From contig NZ_CP054916.1 of the NCBI RefSeq assembly GCF_013364155.1, forward strand, positions 62,001 to 126,000: 64,000 bases of DNA, given 5' to 3'. Both the position numbers and the translations under genes were made by a program. The notes below the pieces were generated by a model, which searched no databases, had not been told where the DNA came from, and was given only the letters and a program-made list of their open reading frames with translations. Of the stretch, positions 1,930-7,146 are shown piece by piece; within the stretch, counting starts at the first letter, position 1, and each line of letters starts with the position of its first letter. The DNA is from Streptomyces sp. NA02950 (GTDB lineage: Bacteria; Actinomycetota; Actinomycetes; Streptomycetales; Streptomycetaceae).

Positions 1930-2679
1930 TCAGGTGGGTGTCCAGCCTCGCACTTCGAGGTGGGTGATCTGCGCACCGGGTGCGAGGCGGCCGGTCTCCA
2001 CCATCCAGGCGCGTACCGCGGCGGCGACGTCGCCGCCGTGCGCGTCGACCCGGGCCTTCCACTCCCGTGCGTCGAACCCGGCTTCGCCCAGGCCGGGGCC
2101 GGCGCTGTTGCCGTACGCGCGCTCTTCGGTGCTGTCCTTGCGCTGGACGACGTTGCGGCGCACGCCCGGTGAGTCGGCCCAGCGGCCGGAGTCGATGAGG
2201 AAGTACTTCTTCTTCGCCCGGACGGTGAACGCGATCCGGCCCTGGGCCGCGGCGGTGTTCTCCACCACCGGCCGTAGCCGGGACGCGCCGGAGGCGATGT
2301 GCTGCTTGGCGGCGCGGGCCATCGTGGAGTGGCCCGGAGTGGCGACGACGTCTTTGGTGCGCACCCGGGCCGTCTTCCCAGCCTTGGTCCGGCGGCGGTG
2401 AACGTACGGCTGCGCCACCGCCTTGAGTTCCGCGACCGTGGTGGCGGTCCCGACCTGCAGTTCCTGGACTGCGTACCGCAGAGCCTCCTCGTAGGAGGCT
2501 CCTTTGCCCTTGGTGAAGAACTGGGAGACCAGGGATGGGTTGCGGCCGATGATTTCGCCGACGTCGCGCTTGGTGAAACCGGCGCTCAGCAACTCCCGGG
2601 TGAGCCGAGCCGCCTCATTCAGCTGTGGCTGACCAGCACGGCCACGGCGGCCGGTCGCTTGGCGTCTGCGTGGTGTCAC
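1930..2679 (-). CDS. HTH protein, candidate Tpc-like telomere terminal protein
   Basis: A 249-residue basic protein starting at GTG 2679, which overlaps the stop of the previous gene by four bases. After an Arg-rich start, residues about 20-65 form a helix-turn-helix (LLSAGFTKRDVGEIIGRNPS). A region with FTVRAKKKYFLIDSGRW follows and an acidic C-terminal part ends at TGA near 1930. Size, HTH-first layout and position as last gene of a large-small-medium trio agree with the published SCP1.125 (tac), SCP1.126, SCP1.127 (tpc) arrangement of linear plasmid SCP1, where Tpc is covalently bound to the 5' DNA ends. I have no alignment, so the assignment is inference. An alternative is a plasmid replication or regulatory protein. 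Confidence 0.45.
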   Translation of the reverse strand: MTPRRRQATGRRGRAGQPQLNEAARLTRELLSAGFTKRDVGEIIGRNPSLVSQFFTKGKGASYEEALRYAVQELQVGTATTVAELKAVAQPYVHRRRTKAGKTARVRTKDVVATPGHSTMARAAKQHIASGASRLRPVVENTAAAQGRIAFTVRAKKKYFLIDSGRWADSPGVRRNVVQRKDSTEERAYGNSAGPGLGEAGFDAREWKARVDAHGGDVAAAVRAWMVETGRLAPGAQITHLEVRGWTPT

Positions 2680-2921
2680 GCCGCCTCCTCGAGGTCGTTG
2701 CGGCAGGCGTGATCGGAGTAGGTGACGGTGTCGTCGCGGAGCAGGCCATCGCCCGTCGCACCGCATGCATGGCGGTGCCATTCTGCGTGCCAGGTCACCT
2801 CGGTGTTGCAGCCCCAATCCTGCTGAGAGAGCACGGTGGCTTCGTCCGCCGACATCTGCTCACCGGTGGTGTCACCCGCCAGGTGTTCCCGCTGGCCGCC
2901 CCACTGCACTCTGTTGCTCAT
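2676..2921 (-). CDS. 81-residue protein between the Tac-like and Tpc-like genes
   Basis: It starts at ATG 2921, overlapping the stop of the 712-residue gene (ATGA), and ends inside the GTGA start of the next gene, so the three genes are translationally coupled. The sequence (MSNRVQWGGQREHLAGDTTG at the start) is polar, has three Cys and several His in its C-terminal half (WGCNTEVTWHAEWHRHACG), and could bind a metal. I do not recognise the family. By position it corresponds to SCP1.126, reported as dispensable for mini-SCP1 replication. Confidence 0.6.
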   Translation of the reverse strand: MSNRVQWGGQREHLAGDTTGEQMSADEATVLSQQDWGCNTEVTWHAEWHRHACGATGDGLLRDDTVTYSDHACRNDLEEAA

Positions 2922-5056
2922 AGCCCGGCCTCTTGCTCCTCGGCGAGGTGGGCGCGGCCGAGGGTTTGCAGCGACAGCAGTTCCTCCTCCGTACGCGGGC
3001 CGGTGAACGGCCCGGGCAGGTGGCCCTTCTTGAGGTAATCGCCCGGCTGTCCGTGATACGGCCAGGCCGCGTCGTGGGTGGTGTAGATGGCGTCGGTGCG
3101 GAACGCCACGATGGAGTCGGGTGGCAGGTGCAGTGCGCCGACGTAGGCGTTGTCCTCGCGCATCTTCGTCGACAGCAGCGCAGCCCGGGCACCGGACCAT
3201 ACTCCGGCGGCCCACTCCGGGTGCGTGTACGGGTCGCGGGAGAACCCGGCGCTGCGCTGCCAGGTGATCGTCTCACCGTCGGAGCCGATGATCTGCGCAC
3301 CGGCCGGGATCTCGTGCTCATGACCGACCGGCACCGAGCGGGTAATGATCCTGGGGCGCTGGGCAAAGCCACCAATGCCATACAGCAGGATGCTGCGTAC
3401 CGCCCGCGAGGCGAGGTGGGCGGCGGTGCGCTGTCGCTCATCCCCGTGGTTGGCTGCGAGGGCCTGGAGGGATGCCCAGGCGTCTTTCAGCTTGGTCGAC
3501 CAGTCGCGCAGCGGGGTGCTGGATTCCCAGAGCAGGCCGTCGAGGATCTCGATCCGCCAGGGGGTGATCGGGTTGCGCAGGGCGAGGTTGACTTCCGCGC
3601 CCCCGGCCCAGGTGGTGAAGGTCTGGCCGGGCTCGGCTGGGTAGTACCAGGCCCGGTCTCCCGCGGCTGGCGCCGGGAGGATCCCGACGTGGTCCCAGCG
3701 GTCGGGCACGGTGACCCGGATCTGCCAGTGTGAGGGGGCGAAGAGTGCGTTGGTCTGCTCTTTTTCGGTCATCGCGGCGAAGGCGGCCGCGGTGATGCGG
3801 CGGGGTGCGCCGACGCCGGAGGCCCAGGTGTGCTTGGCGTAGGCGAAGGTGCGGTCGTACTCCACCAGCTGCGGGAGTTTGTCCGGCACGCGTGGCGGGG
3901 TGATGAGCTCGGTGCGACCCTGTCCGGCGGTGGCGTGCAGCAGTCCGCGGATCTCCTCCGACATCACCGGGTAGCCCTCGGCCCACCGCGACCCAGCCTT
4001 CGCCGGGATGGTGCGCGACCACAGGTCGCGGCCGGTCTGCGAGGGCGAGCCCATCAACGTCACATCCGGCCAGTGCCGGTGCAGTGCCCTCCACAGCATC
4101 ACGAAGGCGTCCCGCACAGTTGCGGGGTCAGCGCCGTCGGAGTCGAACCACTCCCCCACCGAGCGGATTTCGGTGTGTTGGTCGCCGCGCTGCCAGCGGC
4201 CCACCGGGTTACGCGGGTGGACCAGGTGTCCTGCCAGGCGGTCCTTGCCGCGTGAGGACTCCACCTGCCAGCCGGGTACTGGGGCGTTGAGCCAGGCGGC
4301 GACGGCATCACGCAGGAAGGGGTACCGGTCGGTGTCGCGGTGCCACGGGTCGCCGGCGGTGATGTAGATCCGCTCCACGCTGTCGGGAACGGTGGCGTAC
4401 ACAGCGGTGAGGATCTCGGACACGCTGGCGGTGCCCAAATCCAGGCGCACGGTCTGGTCGCGGTGAACGAGAACACCGGTGTTCGTGTCGAGGAATGCCA
4501 TCTGGCGCGGTTGCTGAGTGAAGGTGGGCCGCTTTGAGGCGAGGTTCGGCGCCGGTGCACACCAGGCGTCACCGCGTTCCCCGGGCGGGATCGACGGCAG
4601 CTCCCGTACCTGCGGCTCAGGCGCAGAAGCGGCGACTGCCGGCCCGGGCTGGTCCAGCGCGCCTTCCACAGCCTCCGGCACGCCGTCGTCCGCTGCTCGC
4701 AGGTCCGTGTCGAGGGCGGCACCGTTGTCGGCGGCTGCAGGCCCCTGTTGACGGCGCAGGTCCGGGGCAGGAGCGCCGGCAGGGCCCGGCGCCGGGGCAG
4801 CGGGGGCGGCTGGCGTCGGCTGCGCGGAAGGCGGCTGCTGGGGGCCGAGATGCGGGACCAGGGCGACGACGTCGACGACGCTCAGTCCAGCCGCCGGGGC
4901 GATCCGTTCGGCCTTAGCCTTCTCAAACGTCCCCAAGGCCACGATCCGCTTGTCCCGGTCCGACTCCAGACGCTGCAGCTCCTTGCGCACTGCCTTGATG
5001 TCGTCGCGAACTCGACGCAGCTCGCCAAGAGCTGCGGTGAATTCTTTGCTGTCCAT
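2918..5056 (-). CDS. Large protein, candidate Tac-like telomere-associated protein
   Basis: A 712-residue protein starting at ATG 5056 behind GGAAGAG. The N-terminal ~60 residues form a coiled coil (LGELRRVRDDIKAVRKELQR) resembling histone-like or Lsr2-like N-termini. A Pro/Ala-rich linker (to about 180) leads into a globular region that opens with AFLDTNTGVLVHRDQTVRLD and contains MGSPSQTGRDLWSRTIP and, near the end, YVGALHLPPDSIVAFRTDAIY. It has the feel of a nucleic-acid enzyme with a palm-like carboxylate motif, but I cannot identify catalytic residues with certainty. It is first of a coupled trio. In SCP1 the equivalent gene, tac, is essential for replication of the linear form. The assignment rests on gene order and size. 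Confidence 0.45.
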   Translation of the reverse strand: MDSKEFTAALGELRRVRDDIKAVRKELQRLESDRDKRIVALGTFEKAKAERIAPAAGLSVVDVVALVPHLGPQQPPSAQPTPAAPAAPAPGPAGAPAPDLRRQQGPAAADNGAALDTDLRAADDGVPEAVEGALDQPGPAVAASAPEPQVRELPSIPPGERGDAWCAPAPNLASKRPTFTQQPRQMAFLDTNTGVLVHRDQTVRLDLGTASVSEILTAVYATVPDSVERIYITAGDPWHRDTDRYPFLRDAVAAWLNAPVPGWQVESSRGKDRLAGHLVHPRNPVGRWQRGDQHTEIRSVGEWFDSDGADPATVRDAFVMLWRALHRHWPDVTLMGSPSQTGRDLWSRTIPAKAGSRWAEGYPVMSEEIRGLLHATAGQGRTELITPPRVPDKLPQLVEYDRTFAYAKHTWASGVGAPRRITAAAFAAMTEKEQTNALFAPSHWQIRVTVPDRWDHVGILPAPAAGDRAWYYPAEPGQTFTTWAGGAEVNLALRNPITPWRIEILDGLLWESSTPLRDWSTKLKDAWASLQALAANHGDERQRTAAHLASRAVRSILLYGIGGFAQRPRIITRSVPVGHEHEIPAGAQIIGSDGETITWQRSAGFSRDPYTHPEWAAGVWSGARAALLSTKMREDNAYVGALHLPPDSIVAFRTDAIYTTHDAAWPYHGQPGDYLKKGHLPGPFTGPRTEEELLSLQTLGRAHLAEEQEAGL

Positions 5057-5102
5057 CACGGTCTCTTCCCGGCGTTGCGGTGAGTACGGGGCGGTCGTGG
5101 AT

Positions 5103-5702
5103 TTATACGGGCGTGGATTGTGTGGTGACGTAGGCGATGGTGCCGCCCGAGTGGGAGGCCAGGTGTGTGCCCAGCAGAGAGTCGGCCACTTCCCGGTCAG
5201 CCGCATCGGGTGCCGTCAGTTCCTTCACCGGTCGCACCAGGTCGGTGACGTAGCCAGCCAGGACGGCGTGCGGGAATCCGTGCCGGCCACGGTTGTCCTT
5301 CTCCCAGCGTGTCAGCTGGGTCAGCACCGCGACGACGTAGCCGGAGAGTGTCACAGGGAGGACTTCTCCAGCGGCAACACTCGCCGCATCACAGCGCCAC
5401 CAGCCCTGCAGCGCCTTCAGGAGGTCACTAGGAGGCAGCGTCGCAGAGAATCCGAGCCATTGGCGGTCCTCTTCCTGTACCGGCTTGGCCACGTCGGCGC
5501 GCAGCACCGCGATTTCCCGGACTTGGAGTCGTTCCAGCGGGGCAACGGCACGATCCCGGAGAGCTTGCACTACCTCCAGAGGAACCATCACACGCACCCC
5601 ACGGCGTGACAAGCCAGGCAGCACTCCGGCCTGAATGAGGCGTCGGAAGGTCGTAACCGCGCAGCCCAACTCATCGGCAGCCTGCCCCGTTGTCAGCAAC
5701 AC
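5103..5702 (-). CDS. Winged-HTH (excisionase/MerR-like) DNA-binding protein
   Basis: GTG 5702 (or TTG 5699) is the likely start because GGGAGGAG lies just upstream; a TTG at 5729 is possible but has no such site. Residues 2-45 form a helix-turn-helix of the excisionase/MerR N-terminal kind (LLTTGQAADELGCAVTTFRR, then LIQAGVLPGLSRRGVRVMVP). The remaining ~150 residues are helical and unassigned. The gene ends 46 bases before the Tac-like gene, so it probably heads the same operon and may regulate it from the palindrome at 5732-5762. Confidence 0.6.
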   Translation of the reverse strand: MLLTTGQAADELGCAVTTFRRLIQAGVLPGLSRRGVRVMVPLEVVQALRDRAVAPLERLQVREIAVLRADVAKPVQEEDRQWLGFSATLPPSDLLKALQGWWRCDAASVAAGEVLPVTLSGYVVAVLTQLTRWEKDNRGRHGFPHAVLAGYVTDLVRPVKELTAPDAADREVADSLLGTHLASHSGGTIAYVTTQSTPV

Positions 5703-5731
5703 TTCACTCCTCCCTAACGTCGATCCCAACT

Positions 5732-5762
5732 TCGATATCTAATGAGGCATCGAAACTATCGA
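5732..5762. promoter_or_regulatory. Candidate operator upstream of the HTH gene
   Basis: TCGATA at 5732-5737 is mirrored by TATCGA at 5757-5762, with ATCGAAA (5750-5756) between them, so the CGAT-type half-site recurs in a 31-base block about 30 bases before the start of the leftward operon. This spacing fits a repressor site overlapping the promoter. It is an inference from symmetry only. Confidence 0.35.
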
Positions 5763-6277
5763 GGCGCGCCACTGGTGTCAACGTAAGAGGGCGGACCACT
5801 CCACCCGGTGGATTCGGACGGCCGGTTCCAACCGAAGACACGGCAAGCCAGCGTCGTTCCGCACCCAGGGCCTCGTTCAGTGGGGTCGCTCACTGAAGGT
5901 GTCGAAACGAAAGCGCGAACGTCCCGCCCAGCTCTCGACGTCCAGCGGACATGCCAAGAAGCGGAGAATGGCAGGATTCATCCGCCCAACGCATTCCGGA
6001 CGGGCCCCCGGGTCCTAGGCACCGGCCGTACCACCCCTCCTCCAGAGAGCGACAAGGGGCGATCGGACCCGGTCAGTCGAGCCAGTCGGTGGGAATCAAA
6101 GCGGCGGGGGCAAGCTCTTGTGCGGGCCGGGTACGTCCAGCCCAAGTGTCCGCGCGTGGCGCGCTCGACCTAGCTATTGCCTGCACGCCTCCCCCATTCA
6201 AGGCTGAGCAGAGCCCTGCAGCTGATGCGCTTGCGGGAGTACCCACCTGGGGAACGGCCGCCTAAAAAATCTTGGCC
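5763..6277. other. Stretch without a supported gene
   Basis: Between the leftward operon and the IS5-type element, 515 bases hold only overlapping short frames on the plus strand with low-complexity, basic translations. No ribosome binding sites, hairpins or homologies are recognised. Confidence 0.4.
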
Positions 6278-7146
6278 TCTTCAGACACCGTTTCCTTTGG
6301 TGTGATCGTTCGTTGAGCCGTGCATGACGGATCTGGTTGAGCGGTTGGTACCGGACGAGTTATGGATGCTGTTCCGGCGGGTGGTGCCGCCGACGGAGGT
6401 GAAGCGCCCGCAGGGCGGGGGCCGGCGACGGGCTGGTGACCGCGAGACCCTGGCAGCGATCATCTTCGTGGCCACCTCGGGCTGCACGTGGCGGCAGTTG
6501 CCGCCGGTGTTCGGCCCGGCCTGGCCCACGGTTCACCGGCGCTTCGCCCAGTGGAGCCGGGCCAGGGTGTGGGCCAGGCTCCATCGAGTCGTCCTCGATG
6601 AACTCGGCGCCCGCGGTGAGCTGGACTGGTCGCGGTGTGCCATCGACTCGGTCAGCGTGCGGGCGGCAAAAGGGGGCCACTGACGGGACCGAATCCGACC
6701 GACCGCGGCAAGAGCGGATCGAAAATCCACCTCATCACGGATCGGAACGGACTGCCCCTGTCGCTGGGTATCTCCGGCGCCAACATGCACGACAGCCTCG
6801 GTCTGAAGCCGCTCGTGCGTGGAATCCCACCCTTCCGCTCCCGGCGTGGCCCGCGTCGTCGGCGCCCGGCCAAGCTCCATGCCGACAAGGGCTACGACTA
6901 CGAGCACCTACGCAGATGGCTTCGCCAGCGGCGCATCCGTCATCGCATCGCCCGCAAGGGCATCGAGTCCTCGCAGCGTCTTGGCCGACACCGCTGGGTT
7001 GTTGAAAGGACAGTGTCCTGGCTCGCTGGATGCCGTCGCCTGCACCGCCGCTACGAGCGCAAGGCCGAGCACTTCCTGGCCTTCGTCGGCATAGCCGCAG
7101 CTCTGATCGGCTACCGCCGCCTCACCAACTGAAACGGCGTCTCAGT
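6278..7146 (+). mobile_element. IS5-family insertion sequence, about 0.87 kb
   Basis: Imperfect terminal inverted repeats are visible. The left end (CAGACACCGTTTCCTTTGGTG, about 6282-6302) matches the complement of the right end (CACCAACTGAAACGGCGTCT, 7123-7142) at about 16 of 19 aligned bases. The two-frame transposase lies between. Outer boundaries are good to about five bases and no target duplication could be fixed. The right end lies about 65 bases upstream of the next operon's likely start, so the element may have replaced that operon's promoter. Confidence 0.75.
6324..7132 (+). CDS. IS5-family transposase (programmed -1 frameshift)
   Basis: Frame A (6324-6683) starts at ATG 6324 and reads LVERLVPDELWMLFRRVVPP with the N-terminal DUF4096-type region (FVATSGCTWRQLPPVFGPAW) and the first catalytic Asp in CAIDSVSVRAAKGG. 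At the slippery run AAAAGGGGG (6668-6676) a -1 shift joins it to frame B, which carries GKSGSKIHLITDRNGLPLSL, the second Asp region (LHADKGYDYEHLR) and the Glu region (RHRWVVERTVSWLAGCRRL), ending at TGA 7132. All DDE blocks are present and uninterrupted apart from the shift, so the element may still be active. Confidence 0.85.

Follow-up and report, generated by a model that had tools for sequence, protein, structure and literature searches.

Which system maintains the ends of the chromosome of Streptomyces sp. NA02950, and what kind of enzyme does it employ? The question is raised by an operon of four leftward genes at 1930-5702 of a 64,000-nucleotide stretch (the window, i.e. the whole stretch of DNA analysed, bases 62,001-126,000 of the linear, 9,619,720-bp contig NZ_CP054916.1), in which we recognised relatives of tac and tpc of the linear plasmid SCP1. 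In our judgement the genes very likely form a Tac-Tpc telomere operon of the SCP1 class, carried in the terminal inverted repeats, with Tpc as the terminal protein and Tac as a divergent protein-primed B-family DNA polymerase. The operon comprises, from its first gene to its last:

5103-5702, minus strand: DNA-binding protein of 199 residues with a MerR/excisionase-like helix-turn-helix (HTH; HTH_17 match), first gene of the operon
2918-5056, minus strand: Tac-like telomere-associated protein of 712 residues, predicted divergent protein-primed family-B DNA polymerase
2676-2921, minus strand: protein of 81 residues, matching 6 of 7 small genes that separate plasmid-borne tac and tpc
1930-2679, minus strand: Tpc-like terminal protein of 249 residues, with an N-terminal HTH-like domain and a C-terminal alpha/beta domain

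The operon, its relatives and the chromosome ends

The genes for Tac, the 81-residue protein and Tpc overlap successively by 4 bp, and the HTH gene lies 46 bp upstream of tac. An earlier note on this DNA had described three coupled leftward genes, headed by an HTH gene and ending in a product with an N-terminal HTH; its coordinates and sizes (712, 81 and 249 residues) were confirmed, and an HTH-like domain is indeed present at the N-terminus of the Tpc-like protein. The operon occurs twice on the contig, at 63,930-67,702 and, inverted, at 9,552,019-9,555,791. The two loci are exact mirror images with intact and identical reading frames, and the arms are identical (0 mismatches) over the stretches compared, i.e. 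the terminal 19,721 bases and 63,221-79,721. The replicon is a linear chromosome, the terminal inverted repeat of which includes the operon. A search with a Tpg query (a protein of ~185 residues, which as a positive control finds a match in 115 of the 150 sampled genomes of the genus) yielded no match in the source genome.

According to PMC8743542, SCP1, pSCO2 and pFRL3 have telomeres of the SCP1 type, and tac and tpc are carried by SCP1 and by the Streptomyces collinus plasmid. The same operon is borne by pFRL3, with 59% identity for Tac and 56% for Tpc, and more distant homologues of both proteins are encoded by pSCO2 of S. collinus (Tac: 33% identity over 62% of the length; Tpc: 32% over 51%, E 2e-4). 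The layout, namely a Tac of ~700 residues followed by an HTH-bearing terminal protein of ~250 residues, is likewise present. Membership of the SCP1 class, as proposed in the earlier note, is supported by the pFRL3 and pSCO2 homologues, the gene order, the linear contig and the lack of a Tpg match.

The pairing of the two genes is conserved among relatives, the closest Tac homologues being from Streptomyces. Plasmid records with a Tac homologue number 58 (E <= 1) and those with a Tpc homologue 28. Thirteen of the 14 Streptomycetaceae plasmid records that were opened are annotated as linear and one, pSCO2, as circular, despite which its telomeres are counted in PMC8743542. In 13 of these 14 records tpc comes immediately after tac or is separated from it by one or two small genes, the exception being a Streptomyces canus plasmid in which a transposase gene (5244-6449 of its locus) separates tac from the small gene and tpc; the two genes lie close together on the same strand in all 14, i.e. 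in pFRL3, pSCO2 and 12 of 12 others, the S. canus plasmid included. Distant pairs, with a Tac of ~30% identity, were found on plasmids of five other actinobacterial genera (pLMV7, pKRAD01 and pC1b annotated as linear; pCSL1 and a Cutibacterium acnes plasmid annotated as circular). The Tpc profile matches 17 of the 17 records searched, at least 5 of which had contributed rows to that profile. In six assemblies, chosen for their terminal appearance from the 80 loci that the genome scan retained out of 125 relatives, Tac and a contig end are 1.6-12.5 kb apart; the remaining loci mostly sit inside draft contigs and are uninformative on position. In public records Tac homologues are often labelled Mucin-19 or hypothetical protein, perhaps owing to an Ala/Pro-rich linker.

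Homologues of the HTH gene (52-68% identity) were found in 5 of 12 tested genes upstream of tac; its HTH_17 match (E 1.2e-6) was obtained on a 208-residue open reading frame (ORF) with an earlier start. Relatives of the 81-residue protein have, by eye, two zinc-ribbon-like Cys/His repeats, the first of which is degenerate in the protein itself. For both genes we infer accessory, regulatory roles.

The ends of the Tac-bearing records are heterogeneous. A run of at least six G at the end or at most 3 nt from it, such as is described for the start of SCP1 (PMC4513846), was found at 6 of 38 ends (in 4 of 19 records), namely the right ends of pFRL3 and pC1b and both ends of pSCO2 and pLMV7. The ends of several Tac plasmids share a common telomere type, with GAATTC-rich stems and TTTC, TTC or GTT loops. 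The linear plasmid BB1-1-1 (NZ_CP134205.1) has the archetypal telomere CCCGCGGAGCGGG on the left and a different hairpin array, with TGAC/TGGC loops, on the right, i.e. it is a hybrid replicon, which also carries tac-tpc.

Among the 150 sampled genomes of the genus 11 contain a strong Tac match (E < 1e-100), which makes the system commoner than the rare alternative that the earlier note had taken it for. Two of these genomes, G000 and G055, are without a Tpg match (in G055 the Tac copy lies on an 8.67-Mb contig, at 34 kb from its end), and the other nine also have Tpg, two of them with Tac matches of partial length only. One further chromosome with Tpg, G091, bears a short Tac fragment in both arms (67902-68030 and 10198621-10198749), suggestive of a lost tac operon.

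Several observations argue against assigning the operon to the SCP1 class as the capping system of this chromosome. The comparison with SCP1 is indirect, as it runs through pFRL3 and pSCO2 instead of through SCP1.125-127 themselves, and no G run is seen at 32 of the 38 record ends (among these, several hairpin arrays appear truncated, several ends are coding-like and one, the left end of BB1-1-1, is archetypal). Tac is not the sole telomere system in the nine genomes that also have Tpg, and the search of the source genome was made with the Tpg query, so that it covered neither Tap alone nor GtpA-GtpB. Finally, a hairpin or palindrome array is absent at the assembly ends, with one hairpin in 200 nt. 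Because the contig start resembles coding sequence and has no hairpin array, the assembly probably stops short of the outermost telomere. Of the linear replicon with atypical ends that the earlier note had expected, the linearity and the long inverted repeats were found; the atypical ends are unsupported by these assembly ends.

Tac, Tap and the B-family polymerases

The predicted model of Tac has a PolB fold that is most like the phi29-type polymerase, with 431 residues matched at 12% identity. The corresponding segments and residues, in which the assignment of motifs A and C rests on profile alignment (hhalign) and secondary structure and not on a residue-level superposition, are:

2927-4516, minus strand: Tac residues 181-710 (first and last aligned residue), structurally aligned with phi29 polymerase residues 3-523
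3854-3856, minus strand: putative motif A aspartate D401 (YDRTFAYA), 119/119 Tac sequences, opposite phi29 D246 by hhalign
3371-3397, minus strand: motif B-like segment R554...G562 (RSILLYGIG), in helix 540-564, R/K554 and G562 each in 119/119
3092-3094, minus strand: putative motif C aspartate D655 (FRTDAIY), 119/119, in the turn between strands 649-653 and 656-659, opposite phi29 D455 by hhalign
4487-4489, minus strand: D190, possible remnant of exonuclease motif I, D in 93/119

Y406 is likewise conserved in all 119 sequences. On the strength of this model we regard Tac as a predicted, divergent member of the protein-primed B-family DNA polymerases.

A second line of evidence comes from Tap. 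The Tac profile also matched 9 loci weakly (E 1.7e-4 to 9.9e-4), spread over 8 of the 150 genomes; eight of these loci, one per genome, were opened. In all eight the best-matching ORF (541-778 residues, one cut by a contig end) adjoins a Tpg-like ORF (in G111 its frame looks broken), and because of this position we take the weakly matching ORFs to be Tap proteins; such matches occur in only 8 of the 115 Tpg-bearing genomes, i.e. they represent partial detection and a selected set. When hidden Markov models of Tac and of the eight Tap proteins were compared with hhalign, a probability of 91 was obtained (E 1e-6, score 61.8, reached by 0 of 200 shuffles), and the polymerase-like part alone gave E 1.1e-6, with 0 of 200 shuffles reaching the score and a reversed control scoring 14.1. 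By these profile comparisons, the homology of Tac and Tap extends over the polymerase-like region. In addition, motif A of Tap reads DVN-x-A-F in 8 of 8 sequences, which is close to DVNSLYP of phi29. The comparison with Tap and Tpg that the earlier note had proposed came out differently for the two proteins, since the similarity of Tpc to Tpg is weak (hhalign 1.1%, with 2 of 200 shuffles reaching the score).

The direct sequence evidence for a link to phi29 has to be set against this. When the Tac profile is set against that of the phi29 family, the score is not significant, being equalled by 35 of 300 shuffles; addition of Tap to the Tac profile improves this to 2 of 200 shuffles, still at an hhalign probability of 0.5%, and Tap compared directly with phi29 is not significant either (0.1%). 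No polymerase was recovered by an hmmsearch of the Tac profile against PDB sequences or by a Pfam search of Tac. Tac lacks a counterpart of the first aspartate in phi29 motif C (YCDTDS). Residue 192, the presumed second exonuclease acid, is acidic in 29 of 119 sequences (15 E, 14 D), and conservation is wanting in those 3'-5' exonuclease acids that could be placed, the others having no placeable counterpart.

The above bears on a conclusion drawn in 2015. According to PMC4513846, Tap and Tac deoxynucleotidylate their terminal proteins, are homologous neither to one another nor to any other protein and contain no DNA polymerase motif; they were considered a new class of enzymes and the two systems convergent. 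Contrary to this, we argue that Tac and Tap share a common origin and belong, as divergent members, to the B family. A claim to that effect was not found in the literature searched, nor was a mention of Tac or Tap found in the available parts of two DNA polymerase surveys (PMC12926913, PMC7544198).

Mechanism and alternative explanations

Starting from what was established here, namely the gene structure, the conserved pairing, the linear replicon, the lack of a Tpg match, the predicted fold with its conserved aspartates and the Tac-Tap homology, a mechanism can be proposed. Replication would leave a 3' overhang that folds into hairpins, to which Tpc (via its HTH) and Tac would bind. The hydroxyl of a Ser or Thr of Tpc may then serve Tac as primer, the candidates, chosen by conservation, being:

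2170-2172, minus strand: S170 of Tpc, candidate priming residue, invariant in 84/84 aligned sequences, motif DSPG
2128-2130, minus strand: T184 of Tpc, second candidate priming residue, conserved in at least 90% and followed by two invariant Glu

T114 of Tpg likewise precedes acidic residues (PMC3572947). Tac, with D401 and D655 as putative metal ligands, would add the first nucleotides opposite the 3' end, after which a host polymerase would take over and extend the short product, and Tpc would end up bound to the 5' ends as the terminal protein. For the SCP1 pair, deoxynucleotidylation of Tpc by Tac in vitro is on record (PMC4513846). We infer that the present copy is active and caps the chromosome.

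The last point could be disputed on the ground that the operon is a passenger left behind by recombination of a linear plasmid with the chromosome end, the capping being done by another system (e.g. one like GtpA-GtpB). The Tac family is frequent on plasmids, the nine genomes with both Tac and Tpg and the Tac fragments in both arms of G091 fit such a history, the true ends apparently lie outside the assembly, and GtpA and GtpB fall outside the comparison. Against this, the two arms have the same, unbroken reading frames, the source genome has no Tpg match, and G055 repeats the combination of a near-terminal Tac with no Tpg match; we consider a passenger unlikely. A different objection concerns the enzyme, in that Tac might have a PolB-derived fold but be a dead scaffold that binds only hairpins and Tpc, with a host enzyme, e.g. 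DinB, making the first bond. The single motif C aspartate and the eroded exonuclease acids are compatible with this, as is the reported requirement of DinB polymerases for linear replicons (PMC4513846). Nevertheless, a dead enzyme would not be expected to retain D401, Y406, R/K554, G562 and D655, as is the case in all 119 sequences, which come from several genera, and the scaffold strikes us as quite improbable. To the possibility that the polymerase match is an artefact of the modelling, which the weak sequence-only tests against phi29 would accommodate, we give hardly any credence.

We thus return to Tac as a polymerase and think it likely that Tac and Tap of actinobacterial linear replicons form one divergent family of protein-primed B-family polymerases that has lost proofreading and is specialised for telomere gap filling. 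If so, the chromosome ends would be kept by a captured replicase of viral or plasmid type and not by a separately evolved class of enzyme. This would address the question left open in PMC4513846, namely how Tac and Tap polymerise without a recognisable polymerase motif, and likely active-site residues can now be named. Phages, adenoviruses and bacterial chromosomes would then have terminal-protein systems that share one enzyme family, and a gene often annotated as hypothetical protein or Mucin-19 would be a marker helping to identify linear replicons of Actinomycetota.

Around the operon, two other features of the window were noted by eye. Downstream, 542-1692 holds pieces that resemble a lantibiotic dehydratase (plus strand) and a Cas3-type HD domain (minus strand), and two overlapping ORFs in different frames at 6324-7132 (plus strand) resemble a frameshift-read insertion sequence transposase of the IS5 type.

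Comparison with known systems

The operon agrees with Tac-Tpc of SCP1 (Streptomyces coelicolor) in gene order and approximate sizes, the SCP1 Tpc being an HTH protein of 259 residues (PMC3572947), but differs from it in being chromosomal and present in both inverted repeats. A chromosomal tac-tpc pair is not new in itself, as one was reported earlier in Kitasatospora viridifaciens, in a strain said to be without tpg (PMC7188733, the available part of which names no enzyme family). That chromosomal pair is known here by description, and plasmid pKVP2 of the same K. viridifaciens strain carries a homologue of the present operon. GtpB-GtpA of Streptomyces griseus 13350, named as an atypical telomere pair in PMC7205883, is likewise known here by description only.

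With Tap-Tpg the system shares a homologous first protein that precedes an HTH-bearing terminal protein, whereas the homology of the terminal proteins themselves is weak and the source genome has no Tpg match. Unlike the phi29 polymerase, with which it gives no significant sequence score, Tac has an eroded exonuclease site, a single motif C aspartate and a specific N-terminal part of ~150 residues, and the alignment stops at residue 523 of the phi29 enzyme, short of its C-terminus. The two enzymes nevertheless have in common the predicted fold and the positions of the motif A and C acids, and in phi29, too, the genes for the polymerase and the terminal protein are adjacent.
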